A DNA stretch of 64,000 nucleotides. Source: Candidatus Krumholzibacteriota bacterium (GTDB taxonomy: Bacteria; Krumholzibacteriota; Krumholzibacteriia; Krumholzibacteriales; Krumholzibacteriaceae). The notes beneath the pieces are model-generated. The model was not told the DNA's origin. It searched no databases and saw only the letters and a list, made by a program, of their open reading frames with translations. The position numbers and the translations under genes were made by a program. Location of the stretch: NCBI GenBank assembly GCA_016932415.1, contig JAFGCX010000020.1, positions 248,001 to 312,000 on the forward strand. Reading direction: 5' to 3'. Below are positions 46,730 through 63,440 of the stretch, piece after piece; the stretch's first letter is position 1, and each line of letters starts with the position of its first letter.

Positions 46730-47869
46730 TCAATATATCTCAGCAAATAGTTTAGCAATAATTTCGGTGAATTGTTCCCTGGCACAACTGGCATATCTAT
46801 TGGCATTGCGCTGTTGGGGAGAATGAAGTAATTCGAATGCTCTGGCCGGTGAAAGTCGCGGAACGCGTGGACCCCCAATAACAAGTGACTGAGCGCCTGC
46901 TGTTGCGCACATATCCAAGACCTTGCTCCGAATACTAATTATGGGATCGTAATACATGTCCAGACTGACGAACGGAACTTCATTTGAAATCGCTGCTACG
47001 AGTGGATGGAATAGTGAACCGATATACCCTGCGGCATTTTGTATCCACGCATACCAGCCAAGTGGCGATATCGGCAGATGGATCCTGTAATCGACGCACA
47101 AATTTGTTTCAAATGTCGGCCAAGGCAGGCTGAACACCTTGAGACCATGACTATGTGCTATGCTTTTAAAATCCAGAACCCAATCATTTGTCAAAAAACC
47201 TTTATTGGGCATCAAAAGAAGATATTGTTTTTTATTATTCGCTGGCTCATTCATATATTCATCCGGGATCGTGAAACAATCGTTTAACATGAACAGGGGA
47301 TCCGGACATCGTGCTGGCCGGATTTTCCCTATAGTGACCGATGAAACCATCAACTGACTCCAACGATCACGGACACTGACAAAATTCATTTCAACGAGGG
47401 CCGCCCGAATACCTTTAAGAGTGTTGACTGGTAATCTATAGTAGTTTGCGCCGTGAGCAGAAGCTGCAAGACTTGCTTTCGCGCAGGAAAGACCGTTACT
47501 CTTTTTTACCCATGTAAGCCAGAATGGATTGGGGAAATGCCCCTCCGGCTCGCCTGAAGGCAGAAGCCGGAATACTGCGTCACTCCCGGTGATTATCAGG
47601 TCGGGATCCAGTTTCTGGCAACATTCGATCAATTCTTCCGATGAATGGCAGCGAACTGACAAAGGAATAAATTTCCTGCAGAATTCTTCGTGCTGGTTCA
47701 GGAACTCGGGATTGACTGTAGCAAGATACCTGGCCTGGATTTTCAGGCACCTGTAGTCAAGGATGATCACGTCATGACCAAGCTTGTGAAGATAACTATA
47801 CGTGGATAACACTTGCAGTTGAGCCCCAAAGTTACATACGGCGTGATGTGTAATAATAGCAATTTTCAT
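46730..47869 (-). CDS. polysaccharide pyruvyl transferase-family protein
   Basis: A 379-residue protein. N-terminal M-K-I-A-I-I-T-H-H-A-V-C-N-F-G-A-Q-L-Q-V, then D-P-D-L-I-I-T-G-S-D-A-V-F-R and later W-I-Q-N-A-A-G-Y-I-G-S-L-F-H and I-R-S-K-V-L-D match the family, in which enzymes add pyruvate as a ketal to a sugar of an exopolysaccharide (or, in related members, act in teichoic-acid-type polymer synthesis). It lies 5 nt after the flippase gene and is the last gene of the minus operon. Confidence 0.85.
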   Translation of the reverse strand: MKIAIITHHAVCNFGAQLQVLSTYSYLHKLGHDVIILDYRCLKIQARYLATVNPEFLNQHEEFCRKFIPLSVRCHSSEELIECCQKLDPDLIITGSDAVFRLLPSGEPEGHFPNPFWLTWVKKSNGLSCAKASLAASAHGANYYRLPVNTLKGIRAALVEMNFVSVRDRWSQLMVSSVTIGKIRPARCPDPLFMLNDCFTIPDEYMNEPANNKKQYLLLMPNKGFLTNDWVLDFKSIAHSHGLKVFSLPWPTFETNLCVDYRIHLPISPLGWYAWIQNAAGYIGSLFHPLVAAISNEVPFVSLDMYYDPIISIRSKVLDMCATAGAQSLVIGGPRVPRLSPARAFELLHSPQQRNANRYASCAREQFTEIIAKLFAEIY

Positions 47870-47874
47870 GATTT

Positions 47875-49452
47875 CTATCTGTCGAACATCGTTGCCTCAT
47901 CGCTGTCCGAATGAACAATCAATCGATTGGATAATCTGAATACTGCCCTTATCCTATCCCGATCTATCTGTTCCAATCCCACCTTCCAGGATAATATCGC
48001 CCACGCAAGCGATACCACGACGATATGAACAACCAGCATAAAAAGTGATATGTTATTTTCCAGCATGCGTAACGCGATCGCGATACAACCGGTAATAATT
48101 AATACAATTACAGGTTGAAGATAAGCACCCTTCAGAAATAATTGTACTTTAATGCCGCATATTCTGGAACTGTAGTAGATAATGAGTGGCCGGCGCATAA
48201 CTGAAAGGACAACCGTCGGAACCACTACACCGAGAATACCAAACCGGGTGAAACCCACCAGGATCACGGAAGCAATAAAATTTACCGCGGCAAAGATGCC
48301 ATCTATTTGAACAAGTCCTTTTATGCGATTCATCCCGAGAAGCACGCCCCATATCGCTCCGCCCGAGTAATTCGCGAGATCTATTATTGCCATGCAGCTT
48401 AACACCGACGCGGTGATAACGTATTTTTCTTTCAGACTCTGTTCCAGCCAGATTCCGATTAAAGGTTTGGCAAAAACACCAAGTATTACCGTCACAATGA
48501 TCTGCAGTAGGAAGGTAACGCGCGTTCCCCGTACAAGAATTGAAAGAAGTTGTTCTTTTTCCCCGGTTACGTGGCGCATCGTCGCGATGGGAGTCAATTG
48601 CGTCGAGATCGTGGTTACAAAGGGACGAAAGGCTCCGGTCAACACAATGGCAGGATTGTATAAAGCAATGGCCCCCGGTCCCATAAATATACTCAATATT
48701 ATCGGATCGGCCTTTACGCTGAATATGTTGATCAACTGCAGGGTAAAAAGGCTTTTTCCTAGGCTTAGCAGCTTTGACATGGCTCTGCGGTTGAAGAGCA
48801 GCATGTTAAGACGCAACGTGTGCTGAATACGGTATGCCAGTCTACGCATAACCAGCAAGGTTGCCAGTTGAGCCAACAACATCGCGACGGACCATCCTAT
48901 AAATCCCGTATCCGTCAATTTAAGCGCAGCGACAATTCCTGCGGCGCGAAAAACAGACGCGCCTGACACCACATAGTTGACTATGTCAAACCTGTTGTGG
49001 CTGGTTATGGCAGCAACATATACCGGAAGCAGGCATGACAGGATTATCGAACCGCAAGCGTAATAGCGTATGAGAAAGATCGCCTGATCCATATAATTTT
49101 GTGAAACATTGAACACCCGGGCGATCAATGGAGCAAATATTATGCATCCCGATCCCAGCACCACGCCTATAAATAACCATATCACTTTTGCCGTGGCTGC
49201 CAGTTCATTAAAACTCTGAGTATCATGAGAGGCGATTTTTTCAGCCAGATGACGCTCCAGAGCACCGCGCAACCCCATGTCCAGGATCATGGTCAATCCA
49301 ACGATAACACCGGCCAGCGTTAACAGTCCATAACCATCCTGCCCGAAATCATTCAACAGTAAGGCCATTAAAAACACACCAATCGCGCCCTGAATAATCG
49401 TCGCGACCCAGGTTGTGCCGGCATTAATCGTGATCCGTGTTGAATCCTTCAA
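47875..49452 (-). CDS. Wzx-like polysaccharide flippase (MATE/MOP superfamily)
   Basis: A 525-residue membrane protein with about 13-14 hydrophobic segments, starting T-R-I-T-I-N-A-G-T-T-W-V-A-T-I-I-Q-G and with G-Q-D-G-Y-G-L-L-T-L-A-G in the first loop, characteristic of polysaccharide exporters. It probably flips lipid-linked sugar units across the inner membrane. It is between the FrhB-like gene (26 nt) and the pyruvyl transferase gene (5 nt). Confidence 0.85.
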   Translation of the reverse strand: MKDSTRITINAGTTWVATIIQGAIGVFLMALLLNDFGQDGYGLLTLAGVIVGLTMILDMGLRGALERHLAEKIASHDTQSFNELAATAKVIWLFIGVVLGSGCIIFAPLIARVFNVSQNYMDQAIFLIRYYACGSIILSCLLPVYVAAITSHNRFDIVNYVVSGASVFRAAGIVAALKLTDTGFIGWSVAMLLAQLATLLVMRRLAYRIQHTLRLNMLLFNRRAMSKLLSLGKSLFTLQLINIFSVKADPIILSIFMGPGAIALYNPAIVLTGAFRPFVTTISTQLTPIATMRHVTGEKEQLLSILVRGTRVTFLLQIIVTVILGVFAKPLIGIWLEQSLKEKYVITASVLSCMAIIDLANYSGGAIWGVLLGMNRIKGLVQIDGIFAAVNFIASVILVGFTRFGILGVVVPTVVLSVMRRPLIIYYSSRICGIKVQLFLKGAYLQPVIVLIITGCIAIALRMLENNISLFMLVVHIVVVSLAWAILSWKVGLEQIDRDRIRAVFRLSNRLIVHSDSDEATMFDR

Positions 49453-49478: not shown

Positions 49479-50933
49479 TCAGACAGATTTTTCACGTCCC
49501 CTTGTCCTAAAAAAGATCCTTAATAATTTCGACATTATCAACAAGCATCGATCCATGAACTGGACTCCGATCATGCGATAGTAAAATACCTTGAGGCCCG
49601 GTTGTGATTGTATCTGCTCAACCATTGCCTGTTTGCTTCTGTTCATTATATATATTGAGAAAAGAATATTGAACTTTTTAACAATCGTTATTCGTCGGGA
49701 AGGGATTACACGTTTGATCGGTATCTCCCAGCCCTTGTTATCCGCGAAAGTCAACCTCGCTGCCAGTTCCTTTCCCTTGTTGGACAACCCTCCAGATTGG
49801 CTGCTTATCACCTTGCTCACCGGGATATTATCCAGATTCACCTCGCCGTTTTCGATACCGTTACGCAATATTTCATTGATTGCATCGTTACGGACTAACA
49901 CGATGTTGGTTCCGGCCTCTTCGCAGGTATATTCAGGTAACCAGGCATCCATGAATACTACATCAGCTACTTCAGCGAATAGATCATCACAATAATTGCA
50001 GGCATTGATCTTGAAATATCCCATATCCCAGGCATAGTGATAATCACGAAAATGGTGTAATAATATCTTCCCTTTTCTGCTGGAACGTGATTTACATGAA
50101 AATGTAAAATGGAACATGCCATCCGGCTTTATTATCTTCTCCCGGAACGAAACGTCACATGCCTGGTTTTCATCAATTCCCGATGCCCTGACCAGGTAGT
50201 CCGTAAACAGGCGGCTTTTAAGCTGTCCACAGGTTAATCCGGCAAGGAATACCACGCGTTCGGACAATTCCGGAACTTTAAGCATCGTCAGCCGGAGAGA
50301 TTTCAGCACACACGGAAGAGCGATAATCGCATAGCGAACCTGATCCTCATCATATAATATATTTCGAAGCAACTCAGAAAATTCAACCTGTTGATAACAC
50401 GAGGTTGACGCATTCCACAAATCCTCCGGATCTTCAATCACGCGGAATCGAAATCTTCTCGTGGGATCGTCATCCTGAACAACGCATACCACCCGGTCCA
50501 CCCGTCTCGTTTTAAGTAATCCGGATAGTACCCAACTCGCGATCCCGCCTGAAGAGCGAGACCATCTCCTTGATTCAGATGTCACAGCTCCAACATAGCA
50601 TTTAAGATAATAACCCGTTTCTTCAGTATGATTTATATCAGGTATTTTTTTAAATTCCCGCGCGGATATCGTATCCTCATTTTCCTTATTATTATAAAAA
50701 GGGCAAACATCGAGACATAGCCCGCACTCGACACAATCCCCGAGGCAAACCGGAACGTATTCCTTCAATGAATTGAACCGCATTTCCAGGCATTCATTCG
50801 GGCAAAGACCCGCGCATGTCCCACAGCCAACACACAGGTTTCTCTCAACGACCAGATTATTTACATTGTTATACTTAGTGAGCTTATGGGAGCTTGACAA
50901 ACAAAATGCCTTTTCATCCCGTTGCTTTTTCAT
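49479..50933 (-). CDS. FrhB-like (F420 hydrogenase/dehydrogenase beta subunit) iron-sulfur protein
   Basis: A 484-residue protein. Two [4Fe-4S] ferredoxin motifs lie at C34-C37-C40-C44 and C67-C70-C73-C77 (with C63). The region about 110-390 has SRRWSRSSGGIASWVL and CNYCDDLFAEVADVVFMDAW, typical of FrhB/FdhB domains, which bind F420 or flavin. FrhB-like proteins often accompany polysaccharide pyruvyl transferases and may act in a redox step or pyruvate/sugar modification. It is the first gene of the minus operon, behind a strong promoter (51010-51038). Confidence 0.82.
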   Translation of the reverse strand: MKKQRDEKAFCLSSSHKLTKYNNVNNLVVERNLCVGCGTCAGLCPNECLEMRFNSLKEYVPVCLGDCVECGLCLDVCPFYNNKENEDTISAREFKKIPDINHTEETGYYLKCYVGAVTSESRRWSRSSGGIASWVLSGLLKTRRVDRVVCVVQDDDPTRRFRFRVIEDPEDLWNASTSCYQQVEFSELLRNILYDEDQVRYAIIALPCVLKSLRLTMLKVPELSERVVFLAGLTCGQLKSRLFTDYLVRASGIDENQACDVSFREKIIKPDGMFHFTFSCKSRSSRKGKILLHHFRDYHYAWDMGYFKINACNYCDDLFAEVADVVFMDAWLPEYTCEEAGTNIVLVRNDAINEILRNGIENGEVNLDNIPVSKVISSQSGGLSNKGKELAARLTFADNKGWEIPIKRVIPSRRITIVKKFNILFSIYIMNRSKQAMVEQIQSQPGLKVFYYRMIGVQFMDRCLLIMSKLLRIFFRTRGREKSV

Positions 50934-51269: not shown

Positions 51270-52256
51270 GTGAAAATTAAATTGCTGGTTGGGGTAACAG
51301 GTGCGAATGGATTTATTGGGAGTTCCATCGTAACCGGCCTTAAAAAAGCCGGTTACGAGGTTATTTGCCTGGTCAGGAACCGATCCGGAACAGATCTTCT
51401 TCCCGAAGGGTCATGCCAGGTCCGTTATACAGATTACAGCGAACCAGGTAAGATTTGCGTTGCCCTTGAAGGCGTGGATGTAGTCTGCCATTGTTGCGGC
51501 CAGTTAGGTGGATGGGGAATAAACACGGATCTGCTTTATCAAGCAAATGTTGAACTGACGCGGAAGGTTATGCAAGCATCCGTTTTCTGTGGAGTAAAGC
51601 GTGTGCTTCATTTAAGCAGTGCTGGTGTCTACGGCCCCACGGGGGGAAATGTTTTCACCGAGGAAGACCGGTTATCTCCATCCAATCATTATGAAGAAAG
51701 CAAAGTCGCCGCCGAGGAGGTTGTGTCAGAGATTGCCGGATCGTTTATTCGAACGGTCATCATCAGGCCGGAGTTTGTCTATGGACCCAGAGATATGCAC
51801 CTTCTTGGATTTTTTCGAAGAGTGGCGTCAGGTGTTTTCCCCGTGATGAATAATGGAAAATTCCGGCTCCATCCAACTTATATTCAGGATGTCGTACAGG
51901 CAACCGTGAAAATCCTGAACGATCCGGCAATCTCCGGTACATATCTCATTTGTGGACAAAGACATCTGGAATGGAAGGAATTTCTGCGAATTATCGCGGA
52001 AATAATGGATATCAAACTGAGAACTCCAGGCATTCCCCTGCTTCTGGCACGGTCTTCAAGTTTTCTTTTTGAAATTTCGGGCAAACTATCCGGTAAAGAA
52101 CCGTTGCTTACGAATTCACAGGTCAGATTCCTGTCCACAAACAGGTCTTTTTCTTCATCCAAAGCGACCAAAAGATTTGGGTACTCCCCCATTGGTTTGC
52201 GAGATGGGATATCAGAGACGGTGGCATGGTATCGGCGAGAGGGGTTGCTGGCATAA
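51270..52256 (+). CDS. NAD-dependent epimerase/dehydratase (extended SDR), first copy
   Basis: A 328-residue protein starting with GTG. Nucleotide-binding G-x-x-G-x-x-G is G11-A-N-G-F-I-G17, the catalytic pair is Y141-x3-K145 with S-S-A-G-V-Y-G before it. Such enzymes act on NDP-sugars (4-epimerisation or dehydration) or on steroid/quinone-like substrates. Its C-terminal part lacks the typical sugar-nucleotide insertion visible to the eye, so the substrate is open. The stop overlaps the next gene start (TAATG). Confidence 0.87.
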   Translation: MKIKLLVGVTGANGFIGSSIVTGLKKAGYEVICLVRNRSGTDLLPEGSCQVRYTDYSEPGKICVALEGVDVVCHCCGQLGGWGINTDLLYQANVELTRKVMQASVFCGVKRVLHLSSAGVYGPTGGNVFTEEDRLSPSNHYEESKVAAEEVVSEIAGSFIRTVIIRPEFVYGPRDMHLLGFFRRVASGVFPVMNNGKFRLHPTYIQDVVQATVKILNDPAISGTYLICGQRHLEWKEFLRIIAEIMDIKLRTPGIPLLLARSSSFLFEISGKLSGKEPLLTNSQVRFLSTNRSFSSSKATKRFGYSPIGLRDGISETVAWYRREGLLA

Positions 52257-53044
52257 TGTGGCGGGGACCGATGTTTCAAGATTATCTTCAGGCGGCGCTT
52301 TTCGAGGGAGAGGGGTTTGGAAGCGCTTATGAATACCTTGTCGTAGAACGTTTTCGCCGGGCATTTTCAGGGCACATCCTTCGTCCCAGGCATATAGTTG
52401 TCGATGGATTGCCGGAAAGGTACGGAATCGCGGCTGATATTCTCTTATTGGCAGATTGGTGCGACGCCTCAGTGACAATCCTGGATTGGGATACATCCAG
52501 AATAAAAACATTCAAGGAAGTGTATGCGAAGATGTGCGATCATGGAGTCTTTTCAACTGCCCACAAAACGGTCGATGTCCACAATCTTCATTGGTCACGG
52601 TTAGATTCCATGCTGTCAGAATCGACAAACGATGTGGATTTAATTTATTCGAAAGAGGTATTTCAAACAATCCCTGCAGAAGAACGCGCTGGATACCTGG
52701 AATCCATGGTCCGGACTGAAAAACAAGTATTACTGACGGTACCGAATGGAGACAATCCAGATCACCCGACGACAAGCGGATTGCTCGGTGTTGACAGAAA
52801 TGATTTGTCAAGGACCGTTAAAGCGGTCGCAGCGTCACGAAAATACAGTATGAGATGGATAGACTGCCCGCCCGCGTCATCCGGAAATCGATCGAGATAT
52901 CGGCCGTTAAAACCAGGGAGTAAAGTATCAATCGCAGAGCGCGCAATCTCTTCGGCGCTTCAACTCTGGGCAACACTGGAGGAACTCGTTCCAGATGCAT
53001 TAAAACGCCGGAAGGCTCATATAATCGCGCTTACCATTTATTGA
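52256..53044 (+). CDS. putative SAM-dependent methyltransferase-like protein
   Basis: Taken from the ATG at 52256-52258, which overlaps the previous stop as TAATG; 262 residues. The sequence HIVVDGLPERYGIAADILLLADW then V-T-I-L-D-W-D gives a Rossmann-like beta-alpha-beta with an acidic residue at the end of beta 2, and V-D-L-I-Y-S-K-E-V-F-Q-T-I-P looks like motif III-IV of class I methyltransferases. The glycine-rich loop is degenerate, so SAM binding is unsure. It is in a row with an epimerase and a radical SAM gene, as expected for sugar or lipid methylation. Confidence 0.5.
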   Translation: MWRGPMFQDYLQAALFEGEGFGSAYEYLVVERFRRAFSGHILRPRHIVVDGLPERYGIAADILLLADWCDASVTILDWDTSRIKTFKEVYAKMCDHGVFSTAHKTVDVHNLHWSRLDSMLSESTNDVDLIYSKEVFQTIPAEERAGYLESMVRTEKQVLLTVPNGDNPDHPTTSGLLGVDRNDLSRTVKAVAASRKYSMRWIDCPPASSGNRSRYRPLKPGSKVSIAERAISSALQLWATLEELVPDALKRRKAHIIALTIY

Positions 53045-53057
53045 AAGTCCTGATGAA

Positions 53058-54845
53058 ATGAAAATTACAGAAACTGATAAACCCTCATGCGATCCATTAA
53101 TCATCCTGGTTCATCCTCCCATCTCAAATTCCAGCATCATGTCGATGCCCCCCCTGGGAATAATATCCCTGGGAACATACCTGACTTCCATGGGAGTGCG
53201 GGTTCGAATTGTCGATTTGGCAAACTTCTGTCGCCGCGGAAAAGACTGCATCATTCAACCCGATAACATTCCCACGGAGAGACTGGTACAGTATTATATC
53301 ACCATCCAACCTCCATCAAAGATACGAAAAGAGGTTCAGCGTTTACTGGAACAAATAAATCCCGGCGAGAATGACATTGTCGGCTTCAGCATTCTTACCT
53401 TTTCTCAATATGCCACTGCTGTTGTGCTGGCCCGCGCGTTAAAACTCTTTTACCCGAAGGTTAAAATCGTATTTGGCGGCCAATTCATGACATTAATGGG
53501 ACATTTTTATTTCTATTCCGAGAAAGCCATTGATTACGTTGTAACCGGTTCAGGTGAATTATCGCTGTTGTCATTGTACAGAATGATTCTGAGCGGCAAC
53601 GATACGACCGGAAGCGAGATAACTCTCGAAGCTCTCGAATTTCCCCTGGGTTTGGATGACTTCAGGATATCATCGGCAAAACAGGAAGATCTGGCAAAAA
53701 GAACTCTCGATATACAAAAAACCCTTCTAAGGCACGCTCCATCAAACCTGCTCAAGCGTGATCTGAATTGTATCAAGGCGATACACTCCGGGGAACTACC
53801 AGTCTCCGATCTTCCGACTCCAAGTTTCGATCTCTGTGACCTTGAACAGTACAAGCAGAGAATATCGGGATCGATGGAACTTATTCTACCCTACCAGACT
53901 CAAAGAGGTTGTTCCAATTCATGCGCATTTTGCACACACCCCCTTACACAGAAACATGAGTTAAAATCGATAAACAAAATCGCATCAGATCTGGCTGAGA
54001 TCAAGGCTTTAACAGGCGCCCGGCGTTTTTTCTTTTCCGATTCTTCAATCAACTGCACAAGTGATTATTTATTGAAATTATGCTATAATATCAAAGAGTT
54101 AGGATTACAATGGGGTGCCTTCACGCGTATCAGCGGTCTTGATGACGAGGTTATACGGGAGATGGCCCTGGCCGGTTGTTGCTTCGTTTTCCTTGGAATT
54201 GAGTCAGGCAGCAATCCGGTCCTGAGACGGATGAACAAGCGAATCAAGGCTGAGGACTCGGAACGAGTGCTGAGAACTTGTTCCAGGTATGGCATAGCAA
54301 CTTTTGCTTCTTTTATTGTGGGATTTCCCGGAGAGCGGGATAGCGATTTAAAAGAGACCCTGGATTTTATAGTCAGAAACAGCCGTTACATCCAGGAAGC
54401 AGGAGCTACCGCTTTGATGCTCGATTTGGGATCAGGATTGCACATGAATGCCGAGCGATTTTCGCTCCGTTCCCTTCGTTGCGATCCCACGGCCGTTGTG
54501 CGGAAAAGATCCATATTTTCTTACATTACATCAGAAGGTGATTCCTGGCCCAAAATACAAGACCTTATTGACGCAAGGCTGAAACAACTTCAACGCGTTG
54601 TCTATCAATATGTCACCCGCAGAAATTACCCTGGAACCATCATGAGGTTCTTACCGTTTGCCTTATACCGCTTTCTATTGAAGTATGAATACGACAGAAA
54701 ATCATTCCTTGGACAACAGATCTTTATCATCAAGAAGTTAACGACAAAAAGAGAAGAAAGATATTCCTCATTTGCGAGGATTTTCCAGCTACATGACAGG
54801 TATTTTACAAGCAAAATTTGTGAATCCGGTGAGGAGGTCAAATAA
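53058..54845 (+). CDS. B12-binding-type radical SAM protein (A)
   Basis: A 595-residue protein. The N-terminal part (PPLGIISLGTYLTSMG..V.IVDL, then D-I-V-G-F-S-I-L-T) is the Rossmann-type cobalamin-binding domain without the base-off D-x-H-x-x-G motif. The radical SAM cluster motif is C285-x3-C289-x2-C292 (G-C-S-N-S-C-A-F-C-T-H-P), followed by E-S-G-S-N-P-V-L-R-R-M-N-K, a signature of this class. Enzymes of this layout are methylases, ring-contractases or cyclases. Product and substrate are unknown. It is 13 nt after the methyltransferase-like gene. Confidence 0.88.
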   Translation: MKITETDKPSCDPLIILVHPPISNSSIMSMPPLGIISLGTYLTSMGVRVRIVDLANFCRRGKDCIIQPDNIPTERLVQYYITIQPPSKIRKEVQRLLEQINPGENDIVGFSILTFSQYATAVVLARALKLFYPKVKIVFGGQFMTLMGHFYFYSEKAIDYVVTGSGELSLLSLYRMILSGNDTTGSEITLEALEFPLGLDDFRISSAKQEDLAKRTLDIQKTLLRHAPSNLLKRDLNCIKAIHSGELPVSDLPTPSFDLCDLEQYKQRISGSMELILPYQTQRGCSNSCAFCTHPLTQKHELKSINKIASDLAEIKALTGARRFFFSDSSINCTSDYLLKLCYNIKELGLQWGAFTRISGLDDEVIREMALAGCCFVFLGIESGSNPVLRRMNKRIKAEDSERVLRTCSRYGIATFASFIVGFPGERDSDLKETLDFIVRNSRYIQEAGATALMLDLGSGLHMNAERFSLRSLRCDPTAVVRKRSIFSYITSEGDSWPKIQDLIDARLKQLQRVVYQYVTRRNYPGTIMRFLPFALYRFLLKYEYDRKSFLGQQIFIIKKLTTKREERYSSFARIFQLHDRYFTSKICESGEEVK

Positions 54846-54850
54846 TCAGA

Positions 54851-56215
54851 TTGCAAAAGGCATACCGTCTGCATGGAGCCATGAACAGGCAATACTGGCC
54901 GCGGGAACAGCTGGACAAATTTCGTTTCCGACGATTGAAGATGATGCTGGATCACGCTTACAGCCAGTGTCATTACTATCGTACTGCTTACGATCAGGCG
55001 GGAATACACCCGGATGACATACGCTGCCTCGATGACCTAGTCCATCTTCCCATAGTCGAAAAAATCGATGTTCAGGAAATGACAGAGAGCTTTATCACTT
55101 TCCGGCTGCAAAATTACGTCAGGGAAATAGAGAAAGCTCTGGCGACAGGTGAACATCCTCAAGATATTTACCATCACGGGCTCATTTTTCGCCGGACATC
55201 CGGTTCAACAGGTAAACGGCTTATCATATTGATCGATCCGGGTTCCTGGGATGAATTGGAGGCCATCTATGCGAGAAGTCTGTTCGCTACCGGTCATGGA
55301 ATCAGAGAATTACTCGCGGTAAGCACTCCCTACGCAGTCCCGGCCAAACGGTGGTTTGCCCGAGTCGGCCTTATGAGAAAAACATATGTCCCTCTTTCCC
55401 TTCCGGTGGAGAAACAAGCACATATTCTCGCCGGTTTGCCGCTCTGTGATCTGTATTCATATCCCACAAATCTAATGGCTCTGGTTCGCATCGGATGCGG
55501 CAAATCATCGGGATTCAATTTTCGCAGGATTATTTGTACGGCGGAAATCCTGACCGAAACGGCCAGGCTTGAGATCGAGAAAGCTTTTCAATGCCCGGTG
55601 TTTGATCATTATGGGACAATGGAATTCAATCGAATGGCATGGGAATGTGAACATAAAAGTGGCTTACATGAAGATATAGACAGTGTAATCATGGAAATAG
55701 TCCGAGATGGCCGGCCTGCAGATCCAGGTGAAAAAGGAGAAATTGTGGTCACCGGGCTCGTCAACAAAGGGATGCCCCTGATTCGTTACCGGCTTGGTGA
55801 TATTCTTGTCAAGGGTGAGACGCGGTGTCAATGTGGAAGATCTCTTCCACTGCTGCGGAAAATCGAAGGTCGATCAAATGATTATATCGTGACGAGGGAC
55901 GGGACGCTCGTCAGTCCTACGGCTTTTGATACCGCTCTTTGCAGCGTTCCGGGCGTTAAACAGTTGAAACTGGTACAGAGGGATGTGGACACTTTCGATC
56001 TGCAGTTAATCCCCGGCATTGCCTTCGATATGTCAGCATGTGAAAATAAAGCAAGGAATATCATTTCGAAAATACTGAACAATGCATCATTTGTGATGAA
56101 CATTAATGTGGTCGAAGTGATTCCACGAAGCCCGGGAGGAAAGCTTCAATCCGTGGTGTCCGACTTGTCCAGGGGAATCACGAAAGACAAAGAGATATCT
56201 TCAAGGAATAAATAA
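54851..56215 (+). CDS. PaaK/CapK-like adenylate-forming ligase
   Basis: A 454-residue protein starting with TTG (GGAGG 13 nt before); an internal ATG at 54881 also starts the conserved N-terminus NRQYWPREQL. It contains the ATP-binding loop T116-S-G-S-T-G-K122, D-H-Y-G-T-M-E-F-N, and R-Y-R-L-G-D, as in phenylacetate-CoA ligases and capsule CapK proteins. It activates a carboxylic acid as an adenylate; the acceptor is CoA or, in CapK-like proteins, unknown. Two Cys (C-x-C at about 320) mark a CQCGR zinc-like motif. No acyl-carrier protein is nearby. Stop overlaps the next start (TAATG). Confidence 0.85.
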   Translation: MQKAYRLHGAMNRQYWPREQLDKFRFRRLKMMLDHAYSQCHYYRTAYDQAGIHPDDIRCLDDLVHLPIVEKIDVQEMTESFITFRLQNYVREIEKALATGEHPQDIYHHGLIFRRTSGSTGKRLIILIDPGSWDELEAIYARSLFATGHGIRELLAVSTPYAVPAKRWFARVGLMRKTYVPLSLPVEKQAHILAGLPLCDLYSYPTNLMALVRIGCGKSSGFNFRRIICTAEILTETARLEIEKAFQCPVFDHYGTMEFNRMAWECEHKSGLHEDIDSVIMEIVRDGRPADPGEKGEIVVTGLVNKGMPLIRYRLGDILVKGETRCQCGRSLPLLRKIEGRSNDYIVTRDGTLVSPTAFDTALCSVPGVKQLKLVQRDVDTFDLQLIPGIAFDMSACENKARNIISKILNNASFVMNINVVEVIPRSPGGKLQSVVSDLSRGITKDKEISSRNK

Positions 56216-57291
56216 TGAACCTTAATTTCGCTGCAAATCAATTTCGCAACCATATCATGGAGTCTCTGAGCAGAGTTTTTAATATTCCCGGAACAAGACC
56301 TTCACGTTTGACGATGGTCCTGACGGATCGATGCAATCTAAACTGCACTTTCTGCAATTTATGGAAACGCGATTGGCCCCTTTTGTCGACAGATTCCTGG
56401 ATACGCGTGATCGATCAGCTGCATGAATGGCTCGGACCTCTTCACCTGGTTTTTACCGGCGGTGAACCTATGACGCGAGAGGATTTAACCGAGTTGATTC
56501 GTTTCGCGTCGGATAAAGACTGCTGTTGTGAAATTAATTCAAATGGTATTCTAATCAATGATTCCATGGCTGAAACACTGGCTGATTGCGGCCTTCGTGA
56601 GGCTAATATCTCCCTCATGACCACGGACAGGGACGTTTCAAATCTGTTGCATGGTAAAGGAGACATCCCGGAAAGAGTGATTGAAGCATTGAAATCATTG
56701 CGGAATGCCAGGGGAGGATTGATACAGGTTCGGGTCTTATGCACAATCATGGCTGAGAATCTTGATAATTTACAAGACATCCTTGCTGTCACCGAGGAAC
56801 TTGATCTGGAAGGCGTGTTATTTCAACCGGTATATCAAAATTTCGGAAACAACCGGCTGGGAAACAAGTGGTTTATGGAGAATCCACACTGGCCCTCTGA
56901 TAATCAGAAGGTTTTTGAATGCATGGATAAATTGGCAGAACATAAGAAAGCCGGGCGCAGAATTGTAAATCCTCTTGAACAACTGTATCTCATTAAAGAC
57001 TATTTTTCAGATCCACGGAAATGCAAAAAAGCCTGCGTCGCCTCTGATTCCTCCCTTATTATCGAGTGCGACGGAAATGCCTATTTATGCGTTTTCAAAC
57101 CTGCCGGACCGCTGGGTAATGTCATGGATGCTCACCCCCGTGAAATATGGAATGGAGAGACGAGCACAAGATTGAGAAATGGGATCCGTGGCTGTAAAGC
57201 AGGCTGCGCGTTGATGAATATGAATTATTCTATCCCAATGGTTGATAAAATAAGGAAATACTTTAACATGTACGGACATTTAAACTTTTAA
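56215..57291 (+). CDS. radical SAM/SPASM-type protein (B)
   Basis: A 358-residue protein. Radical SAM motif C40-x3-C44-x2-C47 (L-T-D-R-C-N-L-N-C-T-F-C), then F-T-G-G-E-P-M. The C-terminal part has C-K-K-A-C, C-D-G-N-A-Y-L-C and C-K-A-G-C, a SPASM/twitch-like set of cluster ligands. SPASM enzymes modify peptides or sugar-linked substrates. It is translationally coupled to the ligase upstream. A 22-residue frame follows in the next gap. Confidence 0.87.
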   Translation: MNLNFAANQFRNHIMESLSRVFNIPGTRPSRLTMVLTDRCNLNCTFCNLWKRDWPLLSTDSWIRVIDQLHEWLGPLHLVFTGGEPMTREDLTELIRFASDKDCCCEINSNGILINDSMAETLADCGLREANISLMTTDRDVSNLLHGKGDIPERVIEALKSLRNARGGLIQVRVLCTIMAENLDNLQDILAVTEELDLEGVLFQPVYQNFGNNRLGNKWFMENPHWPSDNQKVFECMDKLAEHKKAGRRIVNPLEQLYLIKDYFSDPRKCKKACVASDSSLIIECDGNAYLCVFKPAGPLGNVMDAHPREIWNGETSTRLRNGIRGCKAGCALMNMNYSIPMVDKIRKYFNMYGHLNF

Positions 57292-57320
57292 CCGTCCTGA
57301 TTGATGGAGCAGAGATAAAT

Positions 57321-57389
57321 ATGTTGAGATTCAATAAACCGGGATATGTCAGATTCAAATGTGATTTTCCAGATGGAGATAATCGATGA
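57321..57389 (+). CDS. possible 22-residue coupled small ORF
   Basis: ATG at 57321 opens a frame of MLRFNKPGYVRFKC then DFPDGDNR and stop. The TGA stop overlaps the ATG of the GT2 gene (ATGA), and GGAG lies 11 nt before the start. It contains one Cys, two Lys and several aromatic residues. It may be a leader that couples translation or a small peptide; I cannot show it is made. It may equally be chance in a 94-nt gap. Confidence 0.3.
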   Translation: MLRFNKPGYVRFKCDFPDGDNR

Positions 57390-58423
57390 GTTCATCAGGT
57401 CATTCTGTTGAATCACCTCGCATGTGCCCTGATTGCGCAAAAATATCCCTGGATGTCGTCATACCCACGCGGAATCGGGCCCGCAGGCTGGGGAACTGCC
57501 TGGAAACGCTCGCGCGCCAGAATTGCGGACCAAACATGGTTTACATAGTCAATAATGGCTCGACTGATGATACTTCAGAAGTCATCCGTTCCTTTTCAGT
57601 AAGATTGCAAATCCGGGAAGTGTTTCTTCCAACTCCCGGTGAAGGCCTGGCGAGACAGACCGGATATGGAAACGCAAAATCAGCGCTGGTCGCTTTCACT
57701 GATGATGATTGTCTCGCGGGCGAAAACTGGTGCCATATGATTCGTAGAACTCATATGGATAAACCGGAAGCGGCAATAGTACAGGGACGATCGATTAATG
57801 ACGATCCCTCCAACAAGTTCGGGATCGCAATGCAGCACCGTTTCGATATAGCTACCTGGGACAGCAGGCCGGGATATCGCAGTCGCTGGAGCATCGAGAA
57901 TATTGACGGTAAATTAGACCGTTCCGTAAATGTTTCGCTTGGACCTGAAGCTGTTGACACGAAAAACATGTCTCTGCGAAGAGCCATTGTCTCTGACATA
58001 GAACCGGTATTTGATATCTCTCTTCCCACCCTGTCCGATCAGAGCCTCGGAACTCGAGTAAAACAAAAAGACCTGGATATCGTATTCGAACCTGATATGT
58101 TCGTAAGGCACCAGTACAGGCGGGGTTGGATGATGTTGTGGCGGACCTACAGCCTTTATGGAAGATGTCTCGCCATGATTCACCATAACCACGGATGTAA
58201 ACATATCACTGTACCTGTTGATTTGAAATCATCGTTACTGTTTTTATTGGAATGGAGCCTTGGTCCTGCAAGGATCTCCATGAGAGCGGGGCCAGGCAGG
58301 TTTCTCTGGCAATGGCCATACCAGATTGCAATGGAATCCGCTTTCAAGTTCGGCATCCTTCATGAAAAGTTCTTTAACAGGACAAAATCAGAGTCGAACA
58401 GCCAGGGAGCATCATTAGAGTGA
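57386..58423 (+). CDS. family 2 glycosyltransferase
   Basis: A 345-residue protein with the GT-A fold. I-S-L-D-V-V-I-P-T-R-N-R-A-R-R-L opens the nucleotide-binding domain, N-N-G-S-T-D-D-T-S follows, and F-T-D-D-D-C (D106-D108) is the metal-binding DxD. It probably adds one sugar to a lipid-linked acceptor. C-P-D-C at residues 14-17 precedes the domain, which is unusual for GT2 proteins. The start overlaps the small ORF stop. Confidence 0.88.
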   Translation: MSSSGHSVESPRMCPDCAKISLDVVIPTRNRARRLGNCLETLARQNCGPNMVYIVNNGSTDDTSEVIRSFSVRLQIREVFLPTPGEGLARQTGYGNAKSALVAFTDDDCLAGENWCHMIRRTHMDKPEAAIVQGRSINDDPSNKFGIAMQHRFDIATWDSRPGYRSRWSIENIDGKLDRSVNVSLGPEAVDTKNMSLRRAIVSDIEPVFDISLPTLSDQSLGTRVKQKDLDIVFEPDMFVRHQYRRGWMMLWRTYSLYGRCLAMIHHNHGCKHITVPVDLKSSLLFLLEWSLGPARISMRAGPGRFLWQWPYQIAMESAFKFGILHEKFFNRTKSESNSQGASLE

Positions 58424-58496
58424 TAATATAATTATTGGCTGAATAACTATAAATTTCGCCGAGCGTACCGTACTTAACTTGCAAAGAAGATCCAAC

Positions 58497-59963
58497 ATGA
58501 ACATACTGCTTATCAATCCTCCATACGCGTACATAGACACAAAGAAACGTGATCAGGGACTGGGCCCCCCCCACGGCCTCGGTTACCTTGCCGCAAACCT
58601 GCAAAAATATGGACATGAAGTCGTCATCCTTGACGGAGCTCTTGCAAACTATAGCTGGAAACGGCTGGAAGCTGAAATGAAAAAACACAATCCCGATATC
58701 GTGGGGATTTCGTTTATCACAAAGAATCGTTTCCCCGCTTTCAAGGTGATTAAAATTGCCCGGAATATGTTTCCCGATTGCATGATAGTGGCGGGAGGCC
58801 CGCACCCTTCACTAGCTGTTCAGGATACACTCGAACATATTGAAGAACTTGATGTAATCGTGATTGGTGAAGGCGAACAGACCATAGTGGAGTTGGCGCA
58901 GGTACGACAGGGTAAAAGAACTCTCAGTGACGTGAGCGGTATCGCATACCTGGAAAAAGGCGAAACCGTGATGACTGACAGAAGAGAAAGATTAAACCTA
59001 GACGATCTGCCTTTCCCCGCTCGTGAACTATATTATCACAATAATTTCATGGAAAGAATTTCCCCCAGGCAAAAGGTACCCTTGGGATTTATAGTCAGTA
59101 GCCGTGGATGTCCGGGTAACTGTTCTTTTTGTTCTTCAGTGCGAGTCTGGGGTAAATGGAAGGCTCGCACCCCGGGAAATGTCATGAAAGAGATCGAATT
59201 ATTGTATAACAGCTATGGAAAGAGAGTGATTTGGTTTGTCGACAATAATTTCACAGCTGATATGGACCGGGTTGAGGAAATTTGCGACAGGTTGATTCAT
59301 GCCCGCATGAATCTGGAATGGATCTGTTACTGCCGTACGGACGGTATAACATTTTCCCTGCTGGAAAAGATGAAGAAATCCGGCTGTCGCGAAGTGATTT
59401 TCGGGTTGGAATCGGGTTCTCAGCGGATCCTCGACGAAGTAATCGCCAAGGGCACGACGCTGGAACAGAACGAAAAAGTGCTGCAATGGTGTGACCAATT
59501 AGAGATTCTTAAAATGATGGATTTTATAATCAGTCATCCTTCCGAAACAGTTGAGGACCTCGAAAAGACAATGCTATTGATTCGCAAATATGGTCGCAAA
59601 AACGCCGTTGTTGCGTGGACAACCATGCACCCGTATCCAGGAACGAAGATTTATAAAATGGCGATCGAGAATGGCCTTCTTCCACCCGATTTTTCATGGG
59701 CCGATGAAAGGTTCCGGGGATACCAGACTCTGAGTGCTGTACATGGCGATGTTCCGATTTTCGTTGATAAGCTGAGCTGGTTCGATTTCTCCAAGGTACT
59801 CGTCGAACTGTCCGCTTACGAGGATTATTCCCTTTGGAGCAAGATGGGGAAAGCAATTAAGGATATACATTCTTTCAGCGATTTAAAGAAATACGGCGTT
59901 CTCGGTTTCGAGTTATTCAAACAAAAAATTTCGGGAAATCTTGATTGGGATAAGGAATATTGA
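58497..59963 (+). CDS. B12-binding-type radical SAM protein (C)
   Basis: Taken from ATG 58497 (a TTG 18 nt upstream is also in frame), giving 488 residues. N-terminal N-I-L-L-I-N-P-P-Y and L-G-Y-L-A-A-N-L-Q-K-Y-G-H-E-V are B12-domain strands; G-E-G-E-Q-T follows. The cluster motif is C205-x3-C209-x2-C212 (R-G-C-P-G-N-C-S-F-C-S), and F-G-L-E-S-G-S-Q-R-I-L-D-E supports the family. It is different enough from protein A to be a separate enzyme. The stop overlaps the next start (TGATG). Confidence 0.88.
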   Translation: MNILLINPPYAYIDTKKRDQGLGPPHGLGYLAANLQKYGHEVVILDGALANYSWKRLEAEMKKHNPDIVGISFITKNRFPAFKVIKIARNMFPDCMIVAGGPHPSLAVQDTLEHIEELDVIVIGEGEQTIVELAQVRQGKRTLSDVSGIAYLEKGETVMTDRRERLNLDDLPFPARELYYHNNFMERISPRQKVPLGFIVSSRGCPGNCSFCSSVRVWGKWKARTPGNVMKEIELLYNSYGKRVIWFVDNNFTADMDRVEEICDRLIHARMNLEWICYCRTDGITFSLLEKMKKSGCREVIFGLESGSQRILDEVIAKGTTLEQNEKVLQWCDQLEILKMMDFIISHPSETVEDLEKTMLLIRKYGRKNAVVAWTTMHPYPGTKIYKMAIENGLLPPDFSWADERFRGYQTLSAVHGDVPIFVDKLSWFDFSKVLVELSAYEDYSLWSKMGKAIKDIHSFSDLKKYGVLGFELFKQKISGNLDWDKEY

Positions 59964-61048
59964 TGGACCATCAGGGCAATGTACGAACAAAACAAAACAG
60001 CCTGCTCTGGTTTTTGGAGCGAATTTCCTATTTTCCCAATTTTACTATTCTGGTATTTGCACATATCCTGAAATACAGGATAATTCCCAAACCATATTTC
60101 CTGGATCTTGAAATCACCAATAAATGCAATTTCAACTGCAAAGACTGTTCCTCCCATTTCATGGAGAAAAAAGGCGAGGAACTATCTACTGAAGAAATCT
60201 TTGCCGTAATTGAAGACGCGTGGAAACTTGGCGCGAGGCATCTGAATTTTTCTGGCGGTGAACCTTTTATGCGTCCCGATCTGTTTGAAATAGCTCGAAG
60301 AGCCCGCGATATTGGCTTCATGCTGACAGTAAATACAAACGGTTCCCTTATTGAAGAAAAGAGTATTAAACTGATTTCCACTTTATTCGACGGAGTGATC
60401 CTGTCGATTGATACACTAGATCCGGAACTGCATTCGCGAATCAGGCCTGGACCATTAAATGTTCAAGGATTTATCAGGAAATGTGAACAATTGCGGAAAG
60501 CCGGAATCCGCGTAAGGATTTCTACCGTGCTCAGGCGGGAAAACATCAATGATCTGGATCATGTTCTGACATATTTTCACTCAATTGGAATACAGGTCGA
60601 TCTTCAGCCATTGAATTACTGTGACGATAGAGGAACATCGGTTGGAAGAGGACCCCTGCCTGGTTTCGATAAAAATCATATTTTCAAAGATTGGGAGACG
60701 ATAAGAAAAAAACACCTTCCGAATACCGAATATTACAGGTATATACCTGAGTTCTTGACAGAACCTGCATCCGCGGCAAAACGTTTCATCTGTTTCTGGG
60801 GAAGCTGGGACCTGTCCGTGCGCTCTAATGGTGATGTGACATGCCCCGCTGGGCGATGTCACGCCGGGAACACGCGAATGACTCCACTTATTGATATATG
60901 GAAGGAAATGCGAGATTTTCGTAATAATATCACCCACTCCGGACGTCCGTGCGTCTGCTGGTTCCAATGCACTTCCTCGCGATATATTCCAATGACTAAT
61001 CTTATGCTTGGCAAGTTTAATAATTTGTTTGTAAAGGCACCATTATGA
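59963..61048 (+). CDS. radical SAM/SPASM-type protein (D)
   Basis: Taken from the ATG at 59963-59965, overlapping the previous stop; 361 residues. C55-x3-C59-x2-C62 (I-T-N-K-C-N-F-N-C-K-D-C) is the cluster motif, F-S-G-G-E-P-F follows. The C-terminus holds F-I-C-F-W-G-S-W, V-T-C-P-A-G-R-C-H-A and P-C-V-C-W-F-Q-C, a SPASM cluster set. An N-terminal hydrophobic stretch (about 25-48) precedes the core and may peripherally attach it to the membrane. Its stop overlaps the epimerase start (ATGA). Confidence 0.88.
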   Translation: MDHQGNVRTKQNSLLWFLERISYFPNFTILVFAHILKYRIIPKPYFLDLEITNKCNFNCKDCSSHFMEKKGEELSTEEIFAVIEDAWKLGARHLNFSGGEPFMRPDLFEIARRARDIGFMLTVNTNGSLIEEKSIKLISTLFDGVILSIDTLDPELHSRIRPGPLNVQGFIRKCEQLRKAGIRVRISTVLRRENINDLDHVLTYFHSIGIQVDLQPLNYCDDRGTSVGRGPLPGFDKNHIFKDWETIRKKHLPNTEYYRYIPEFLTEPASAAKRFICFWGSWDLSVRSNGDVTCPAGRCHAGNTRMTPLIDIWKEMRDFRNNITHSGRPCVCWFQCTSSRYIPMTNLMLGKFNNLFVKAPL

Positions 61049-62004
61049 ACAGATCAAGACATGTACTGGTCACCGGCGGAGCCGGGTCAATCGGATCACG
61101 TCTGGTAAGGAGACTCGTATCTGAAGGTCATCACGTATCAGTTGTCGACGACCTTTCAGGCGGACATATTGAAAATATCGACGAATCATCTCTTATCGAT
61201 TTTTATAAAAATGACATCAATGACGAGGAACTTCTGCGGATGATTTTCCAAAAGAATATCGATTCGGTCTTCCACCTTGCGAGCTGTTTCGCGAATCAAA
61301 TGTCGATAGAATATCCAGAGATCGATCTTAAAACCAGCCTGCTGGGGACAATAAAGCTCCTCAATCACGCAAAGGCGAACAATGTCAGGCGATTTCTGTT
61401 CGCGTCTACCGCAAGCGTGTATAAACCCTCCATGGGATTGTTGAAAGAAAATTCTACTCTTCACTTTGAAACCCCTTATGCCTTGAACAAGTATCTGGCG
61501 GAAGAGTATATCAGGTATTATTCGAACTCTTTCGGTCTGTGTTCCACGGTTCTAAGATATTTCAATTCTTATGGACCTGGTGAGTTTCCCGGCATCTACC
61601 GCAATGTCATACCGAATTTCATTTATCTGGCTCTGAACAAAAAAGCTCTCACTGTATTCGGGACGGGCAATGAAAGTCGAAGCTTCTGCTACGTGGATGA
61701 CATAGTCAACGGAACTCTCGCGGCATGGCGATCTGACGACGCTTTTAACCAGGTTATCAATATTGGCGCCCATAATGAAATGAAGATCATCGATCTTGCC
61801 AGCTCTATCAATAAACTGTGTGATAATGAAGGAAATATCGAATTTTCACCATTGAGGAAATGGGACAAAACCATGAAACGAATTCCAGATTTGACAAAAG
61901 CCATGAAGCTTCTGGACTACAATCCATCAGTCGAATTCATGGATGGATTGAAGAATACGACGCAATGGTTTCGTACCGGAAATATACACAGGAGAATATT
62001 TTAG
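61045..62004 (+). CDS. NAD-dependent epimerase/dehydratase (extended SDR), second copy
   Basis: A 319-residue protein with G11-G-A-G-S-I-G17 and Y145-x3-K149 (P-Y-A-L-N-K) plus S-T-A-S-V-Y. R-Y-F-N-S-Y-G-P-G near residue 170-178 and R-S-F-C-Y-V-D-D-I-V are classical NDP-sugar 4-epimerase/dehydratase motifs, so this copy is more confidently a sugar-nucleotide enzyme (UDP-glucose 4-epimerase-like) than the first. Coupled upstream by ATGA. Confidence 0.9.
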   Translation: MNRSRHVLVTGGAGSIGSRLVRRLVSEGHHVSVVDDLSGGHIENIDESSLIDFYKNDINDEELLRMIFQKNIDSVFHLASCFANQMSIEYPEIDLKTSLLGTIKLLNHAKANNVRRFLFASTASVYKPSMGLLKENSTLHFETPYALNKYLAEEYIRYYSNSFGLCSTVLRYFNSYGPGEFPGIYRNVIPNFIYLALNKKALTVFGTGNESRSFCYVDDIVNGTLAAWRSDDAFNQVINIGAHNEMKIIDLASSINKLCDNEGNIEFSPLRKWDKTMKRIPDLTKAMKLLDYNPSVEFMDGLKNTTQWFRTGNIHRRIF

Positions 62005-62006
62005 AT

Positions 62007-63440
62007 TTGAACAAAGAACGCGCGTTTAGTATTGACAAGGATATTCCTTCACCGGCAATAGAGACCGCTATTTCACAATTACTCGGTAATGAAAACCTTG
62101 ATCCCCCCTGGCCAGGAATCCTTCAGACCGGTATGAGGGGGGCATATTATATTGCCAGTTCTCAAATTGAACATGATTTCAGACGTAAGATCACAAAACA
62201 TGATTTTAATGATACTGAATCAACATTTGATGTTTATGAAGTTCACAAGCGTTTTGTGACCATTTTGTGGCGGGAAATAGATTTGTTCATGTGGTCAGCG
62301 ATTCAGAACTTCGACCGCGGGGGGAACAGTTTATTCGTATTATGGACGCTCATAAGATGCCTGCAGGGAACACTATGGATAACGGCGATCCTCCAGGGAC
62401 GTTTTATATTTCCGGAAGACCCGGACGCATGGATTGCTTCTCTTTCATCGGAATTCAAAGAACCAATCGAGCTCTGGAAGCGTGGTTTCTCCGCTCAGTC
62501 AATCACCACCTACATATATTTTGGATTGAAAGCATGCAGCGTATTGCGAGACCGTATAATGGAATATTATTCGATCGAATTACCGAATAATCTTTCCGGT
62601 GATGCGTTGAAATTGTGGCCGGCAATCAATAGAGTTCCCAACAATCTGAATATTGCGAAACACTGGCGTACTATTATTGATCCTGTTATCAGGGCTTGCC
62701 AGAAACAACGTGACTTCGCAGCTGCTCTCGTGTACGGTTCAGCCGGCCGTGGCTTCGCTGACCGGTTTACAAAAGATATCGATATCGTTTGCATGTTCCA
62801 TGATGATGTTCTTACTGAGGAACAGCAAAATATCTTTATAAATAATCTTGGCGGGGGTCGCCTTTTAAATGACGGTTTCATCAATGTTAAACTCAAGGGA
62901 GTCGACGTTGTAATGCTGCAGAGCGTTGTTGAACTCTCGGAGATATTCTTTGGATCAAAACTTGGAATTGAAACGATATTTATCCCTAACAGGCTTCATT
63001 TTCCTCCCCCGAATGAAACATACGGATGCTCGGTAGCTTCTGATCCGGAAGGAATATTGAGCCGCAGAATCCAGCGTATGAAAGACGCGGAAACCCAGAT
63101 GGAAATGACTACATGGGCAAGAAATGAGCCCCAAATCGATTCCCTGCTCCCGATAGTGGTAATATCCCGGGAAAAAGGCAAACAATTCGAATATTTACTC
63201 CACGTAATCGAACTTGACAGGTATCTCTTGGAATTGCTGTCATCCAGAAACGGTGCTTATCACAGGAGTGACTTTTTGAAATGGAGCGATTATTATATCA
63301 ATAATTACGCACTTAAACCTGAATCATGCCTTGAAACGTTGAAAACGTCACTTTTCAAATTATCAGATACCAGGGAATCTTTCAGCGAGTTTGTAACCCT
63401 TGTTTCTAATATTCACGCCCTCGGTAGACAGGGTAGATAA
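62007..63440 (+). CDS. large nucleotidyltransferase-domain protein
   Basis: The frame is open from 61860, but the most sensible start is TTG 62007-62009, just after the previous stop, with AGGAG 12 nt before (477 residues). The N-terminal about 220 residues have no recognised family. Then Y-G-S-A-G-R-G-F with G244-S245 and K-D-I-D-I-V with D257 and D259 form the MNT/polymerase-beta-type nucleotidyltransferase core. It could transfer AMP or another nucleotidyl group to a sugar, lipid or protein; such a large flanking domain is unusual. It is in the glycan island between epimerase and GT4. Confidence 0.68.
   Translation: MNKERAFSIDKDIPSPAIETAISQLLGNENLDPPWPGILQTGMRGAYYIASSQIEHDFRRKITKHDFNDTESTFDVYEVHKRFVTILWREIDLFMWSAIQNFDRGGNSLFVLWTLIRCLQGTLWITAILQGRFIFPEDPDAWIASLSSEFKEPIELWKRGFSAQSITTYIYFGLKACSVLRDRIMEYYSIELPNNLSGDALKLWPAINRVPNNLNIAKHWRTIIDPVIRACQKQRDFAAALVYGSAGRGFADRFTKDIDIVCMFHDDVLTEEQQNIFINNLGGGRLLNDGFINVKLKGVDVVMLQSVVELSEIFFGSKLGIETIFIPNRLHFPPPNETYGCSVASDPEGILSRRIQRMKDAETQMEMTTWARNEPQIDSLLPIVVISREKGKQFEYLLHVIELDRYLLELLSSRNGAYHRSDFLKWSDYYINNYALKPESCLETLKTSLFKLSDTRESFSEFVTLVSNIHALGRQGR

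Follow-up and report, generated by a model that had tools for sequence, protein, structure and literature searches.

A low-G+C island with six radical SAM genes, probably for surface-glycan or glycolipid biosynthesis, in a Krumholzibacteriota genome

Introduction

The presence of four radical SAM genes in one compact run of sugar-related genes from a Candidatus Krumholzibacteriota genome raises the question of what these enzymes contribute there. Radical SAM enzymes can change carbon positions that are out of reach for ordinary sugar enzymes. The run occupies positions 51270-61048 of the window, i.e., the 64,000 nt stretch of DNA that was analyzed (G000:C20:248001-312000). A sequence-only reading had described it as part of a glycan operon with two paired B12/SPASM modules and had regarded more than one radical SAM gene in a polysaccharide operon as rare. 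The analysis presented here points to a larger island that encodes six radical SAM tailoring enzymes, probably serves the biosynthesis of a surface glycan or glycolipid, and was probably acquired or exchanged laterally.

Extent, Coupling and Clustering of the Island

The stretch at 51270-61048 is only the middle part of an island of 28 kb (approximately 46.7-74.7 kb), which runs past the window end (Table 1). Two further radical SAM genes, B12c and SPASM3, are located just beyond the window, so that the earlier count of four holds for the stretch itself, while the island carries six. Past 61048, the same-strand run continues with an SDR gene, an orphan nucleotidyltransferase-like gene, three GT4 genes, a methyltransferase gene and B12c, and it is faced by genes for a GT2, SPASM3, a TPR/PMT-like protein and an SDR. 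The genes for the FrhB-type flavoprotein, the Wzx-like flippase and the pyruvyl transferase are situated divergently and upstream, and an MFS transporter gene sits outside the island, beyond its end. The protein encoded at L011:2777-4909 exhibits a FlgD-Ig C-terminal domain, and its C-terminal region is repeated across many proteins of related genomes, like a secretion sorting tail.

Within 46-75 kb the G+C content is 43.6%, compared with 51.3% before and 54.0% after this region, consistent with lateral exchange of a glycan island. In a same-site comparison with sibling genomes, the upstream flank gene showed no homologue and the downstream flank gene belonged to a large paralogous family. The intergenic distances of the 51270-61048 stretch range from -4 to +94 bases, in agreement with the tight coupling noted earlier, and from 51270 to 69652, a run of 15 same-strand genes, the reading frames are intact and neighbors either overlap or are separated by no more than 94 bases. 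The genes are therefore likely to be transcribed as one or a few units. A scan for promoter and terminator consensus sequences returned no more sites than shuffled sequence. Radical SAM matches number 27 genome-wide, six of them inside 18.3 kb of the island (four in 51270-61048), and such a six-gene cluster was reached in 1 of 20,000 random placements of 27 genes, a control that treats genes as independent points, whereas organization into operons raises the odds of such clusters. A chance pile-up or misassembly might be suspected from the fact that the exact order occurs in no other genome searched; set against the uninterrupted junctions and the low G+C throughout the island, this explanation is extremely improbable.

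Table 1. Genes of the island, with positions in the window unless a locus is given.
Feature	Position	Strand	Evidence and remarks
Polysaccharide pyruvyl transferase (PF04230)	46730..47869	-	77.7 bits
Wzx-like flippase (PF01943 Polysacc_synt)	47875..49452	-	32.9 bits, cut-off 28.2
FrhB/FdhB-type Fe-S flavoprotein	49479..50933	-	PF04432, PF04422
SDR sugar epimerase/reductase, HpnA-like	51270..52256	+	147 bits, under HpnA cut-off 367
Orphan protein	52256..53044	+	start overlaps preceding stop (TAATG)
B12a, B12-binding radical SAM enzyme, 595 aa	53058..54845	+	CSNSCAFC at 285-292
PaaK/CapK-like adenylate-forming ligase	54851..56215	+	NF045666 139 bits (cut-off 300); PDB 4r1l E=3e-25
SPASM1, radical SAM/SPASM-like enzyme	56215..57291	+	CNLNCTFC at 40-47; GGE; C-terminal Cys set
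GT2 glycosyltransferase (PF00535)	57386..58423	+	65.5 bits
B12b, B12-binding radical SAM enzyme	58497..59963	+	alternative start TTG 58479
SPASM2, radical SAM/SPASM-like enzyme	59963..61048	+	SPASM under Pfam cut-off; alternative start TTG 59960
SDR nucleotide-sugar epimerase/dehydratase	61045..62004	+	PF01370 180.6 bits
Orphan protein, weak nucleotidyltransferase signal	61965..63440	+	PF01909 E=0.005; longer ORF from 61860 possible, ~500 aa
B12c, fifth radical SAM gene	L010:7156-8652 (window-equivalent 68156-69652)	+	
SPASM3, sixth radical SAM gene	L010:9637-10749	-	

The Radical SAM Enzymes

All four complete CxxxCxxC clusters of the sequence-only reading were recovered: C285/289/292 in B12a, C40/44/47 in SPASM1, C205/209/212 in B12b and C55/59/62 in SPASM2, the numbering being exact with the ATG starts at 58497 and 59963 (from TTG 58479, the B12b cluster becomes C211/215/218). 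The four proteins score 74-99 bits against Pfam Radical_SAM (PF04055; cut-off 29.5). The assignment of two of them as B12-type is borne out by scores of 37.6 and 78 bits in the two genes for Pfam B12-binding (PF02310; cut-off 32.1), and the position of this domain N-terminal to CxxxCxxC places B12a and B12b, as judged by domain order, among cobalamin-binding (class B-like) radical SAM enzymes. The DxHxxG motif is absent from both; it is dispensable for class B enzymes. The assignment of two SPASM-type enzymes holds in full for SPASM1 (33.5 bits against Pfam SPASM, cut-off 21.5), while SPASM2 remains below the cut-off (17.1 bits) and is SPASM-like. Both exhibit CxxxCxxC and GGE with an abbreviated Cys pattern, and the C-terminal Cys set of SPASM1 predicts one auxiliary cluster.

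None of the four falls into a housekeeping family, and none reached a curated NCBIfam cut-off among the families listed. The suggested comparison of the B12 pair with HpnJ and BchE yielded 167.6 of 577.6 and 200.1 of 481.35 for B12b and 96 and 68.6 for B12a, respectively; with scores so far under the curated cut-offs, equivalog identity of either protein was rejected. The best Foldseek matches of an AF2 model of B12a (mean pLDDT 62) are TsrM, AprD4, MgmA and OxsB. AprD4, a radical SAM dehydratase whose substrate is a sugar, is also the nearest solved sequence to the B12 enzymes, at remote similarity (E about 1e-14), and the nearest solved structures to the SPASM enzymes, likewise remote, include cytosylglucuronate decarboxylase.

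The SPASM proteins show family-level matches to several peptide-maturase families, and a fatty or aryl acid is a possible substrate of the PaaK-like ligase. Both observations would suit RiPP or lipid maturation, in which the radical SAM enzymes act on peptides or on a lipid carrier and the glycan genes are bystanders. However, the sole sizeable gap holds no convincing precursor peptide, glycosyltransferase, SDR and radical SAM genes alternate within one coupled run, and the mixing of radical SAM and glycosyltransferase genes recurs in other phyla, which makes this explanation highly unlikely.

Ligase and Orphan Proteins

Near full-length similarity to PaaK structures (4r1l, residues 16-383; 2y27, residues 18-436) assigns the ligase, at the level of sequence, to the PaaK-like adenylate-forming superfamily, as had been proposed. 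Identity as PaaK phenylacetate-CoA ligase was rejected (TIGR02155, 112.7 of 646.3), the best family being NF045666. Many genomes of the phylum encode PaaK-like ligases (59 of 80 at E<=1e-12), and some of these ligase genes adjoin glycosyltransferase genes (L101, L102). With the ligase as the sole query, a GTDB scan returned no relative, and in the loci examined a ligase next to a radical SAM gene was found elsewhere only in L192/L193 (Methanomethylicota), where the genes are divergent and glycosyltransferases are lacking.

The GT2 and SDR/epimerase genes were confirmed by ORFs and Pfam at the places given earlier. The label "methyltransferase-like" for the gene at 52256-53044, given by eye, was not confirmed, as its protein shows no match in Pfam, NCBIfam or PDB sequences; an AF2 model was uninformative (pLDDT 37). 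The orphan protein of 61860-63440 has no relative among about 80 phylum genomes. No acyl-carrier protein was recognised, in line with the earlier reading: none of the scanned genes matched one and no gap in 51270-61048 is big enough to encode it.

Relatives in the Phylum and Beyond

Six island proteins were compared with about 80 genomes of the phylum (58 genomes in one search), and the matches were remote, mostly with 24-40% identity. The island layout was reproduced in none of 20 retrieved phylum regions, and the exact island was found neither in the about 80 phylum genomes nor in the GTDB loci searched. The gene order was thus not recovered elsewhere in these searches, and the island does not represent a fixed system in precisely this arrangement. 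In a genome of the same class, four radical SAM genes of the B12 type lie within 10 kb (G030:C849, L104).

A GTDB scan with a B12b-led alignment identified at least 80 loci, a sample biased toward B12b relatives; a viral scan with B12b alone returned nothing. Radical SAM and glycosyltransferase genes in 80 loci were called with purpose-built HMMs, and the glycosyltransferases of L194, L200, L254 and L260 were checked against Pfam. Among the matches listed, at least three radical SAM genes lie within at most about 21 kb in 22 of 80 loci, at least two radical SAM genes accompany at least two glycosyltransferase genes in 17 (which, in this sample, contradicts the supposed rarity of several radical SAM genes in polysaccharide operons), and at least three do so in 12. 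These loci include Patescibacteria, Elusimicrobia, Nitrospirae, a deltaproteobacterium and archaea, and several island genes have relatives in radical-SAM-rich glycan loci of Portnoybacteria, Nealsonbacteria, other Patescibacteria and Bathyarchaeota. For example, L200 holds five B12 radical SAM genes amid GT4s, methyltransferases and an Asn-synthase, L254 combines four radical SAM genes with SDR, DegT and GT2 genes, and L194 is a further locus comparable to the island. About six SPASM-like genes plus B12 radical SAM genes were seen in an archaeon and an Aminicenantes genome (L261, L217/L288).

In family trees, B12c clusters with two L200 paralogues (support 0.90), the branch of B12b includes genes of L200, L197 and L194 (support 0.84), and SPASM3 groups with L217, L194, L254 and L260 (88/65; node not firm); the branches that join these proteins to outside loci are long and only moderately supported. 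The three best-scoring GTDB relatives of B12b among the matches listed are from Aminicenantes. Two of these relatives, at L188:4229-8182 and L190:10001-14083, are not amid glycan genes; a histone-deacetylase-like gene is found close by, which hints at a role unrelated to glycans in those genomes.

The trees also bear on the proposed two paired B12/SPASM modules. B12a and B12b occupy separate branches, as do SPASM1 and SPASM2; the copies are deeply divergent in both families and are no duplicates, so that an origin of the pairs by module duplication is not supported. Across the loci examined, which include a few near-identical contigs, a B12 gene adjoins a SPASM gene 21 times, three of them in tandem in L222. 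Pairing is therefore a genuine tendency elsewhere, and the two pairs of the window are not copies of one module. In L222:362-7928 (Daviesbacteria), three B12-type and three SPASM-like genes alternate on a 10-kb contig with no glycosyltransferase recognised. SPASM-GT2 neighbors recur as well: a GT2 gene adjoins 7 of the 10 SPASM3 family members seen (the island's own gene, L194, L254/L289, L291, L293, L294 and L260/L295), and SPASM1 has a GT2 directly downstream, yet its branch differs from that of SPASM3. The recurring SPASM-GT2 pair represents a small testable unit.

Proposed Function

The Wzx-like flippase, the pyruvyl transferase, three GT4s and a second GT2 make a surface-glycan or glycolipid locus the best reading, as the sequence-only reading had also suggested, and on the strength of these neighboring genes we consider it probable. 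The gene coupling, the low G+C, the clustering of radical SAM genes and the comparable loci elsewhere agree with it. Several observations count against it: the search of 46.7-74.7 kb revealed neither a Wzy polymerase or Wzz nor an initiating phosphoglycosyl transferase, none of the radical SAM proteins attains a curated NCBIfam cut-off, and the Aminicenantes relatives of B12b (L188, L190) lie outside a glycan context. In such a pathway, nucleotide sugars would be reshaped by the SDRs and assembled into a glycan by the GT2 and GT4 enzymes, a carboxylic acid would be activated by the PaaK-like ligase so that it can be attached, and export of the product would fall to the Wzx-like flippase. By analogy with characterized superfamily relatives (AprD4, GenK, GenD1, TsrM, cytosylglucuronate decarboxylase), the B12-type enzymes would most likely act on unactivated carbons of sugars or lipids by methylation or deoxygenation, and the SPASM-like enzymes would most likely oxidize, epimerize or dehydrate a sugar carbon.

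GenD1, GenK and AprD4 are radical SAM enzymes that act on sugars, and the gentamicin pathway contains two B12 radical SAM methylases (PMC5461906). This precedent, the proximity of AprD4 to the B12 enzymes, the orphan nucleotidyltransferase-like gene with the ligase, and the MFS transporter gene outside the island would fit a small glycosylated metabolite of the aminoglycoside or nucleoside kind, secreted or intracellular, whose tailoring by radical SAM enzymes would parallel that of gentamicin and apramycin. The divergent Wzx-like flippase and polysaccharide pyruvyl transferase and at least five glycosyltransferase genes argue against such a product, no cyclitol synthase, PKS or NRPS was recognised, and this alternative is unlikely.

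The probable surface-glycan island is unusually rich in radical SAM genes, is not a conserved system in its exact order and is one instance of a recurrent, apparently little-described class. A tentative extension, which may well fail, is that radical-SAM-rich glycan loci form a class that is widespread among uncultured bacteria and archaea but has gone undescribed. Mixed B12 and SPASM-like enzymes, often beside a GT2, would there make sugars whose skeletons are carbon-methylated or rearranged, and the island, with six such enzymes and an acid-activating ligase, would be one case. If glycan loci of uncultured lineages routinely hold several radical SAM genes, their surface sugars may include branched or rearranged residues that have been unseen so far. 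Open-access literature on radical SAM enzymes in polysaccharide loci yielded nothing relevant, which is weak evidence of novelty.

Comparison With Known Systems

B12b shares its superfamily with the B12 radical SAM lipid and pigment enzymes of the HpnJ, BchE and ladderane systems; the island differs from these in scores far under the cut-offs, and no hopanoid or chlorophyll genes were recognised nearby. With gentamicin and apramycin tailoring (GenK, GenD1, AprD4) it has in common the use of several B12-type radical SAM enzymes by a single sugar pathway (PMC5461906), whereas the similarity is remote and the remaining genes match no aminoglycoside cluster. Wzx-type O-antigen, capsule and exopolysaccharide loci resemble the island in their flippase, several GT2/GT4 genes, SDRs, pyruvyl transferase, low G+C and lineage-specific content, but the island is set apart by its six radical SAM genes and the lack of a recognised Wzy or Wzz. 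For the radical-SAM-rich glycan loci of Patescibacteria and other lineages (L200, L194, L197, L254), no established name was found. They differ from the island in the absence of a PaaK-like ligase and in gene order and partners, but share with it the mixture of radical SAM and glycosyltransferase genes.
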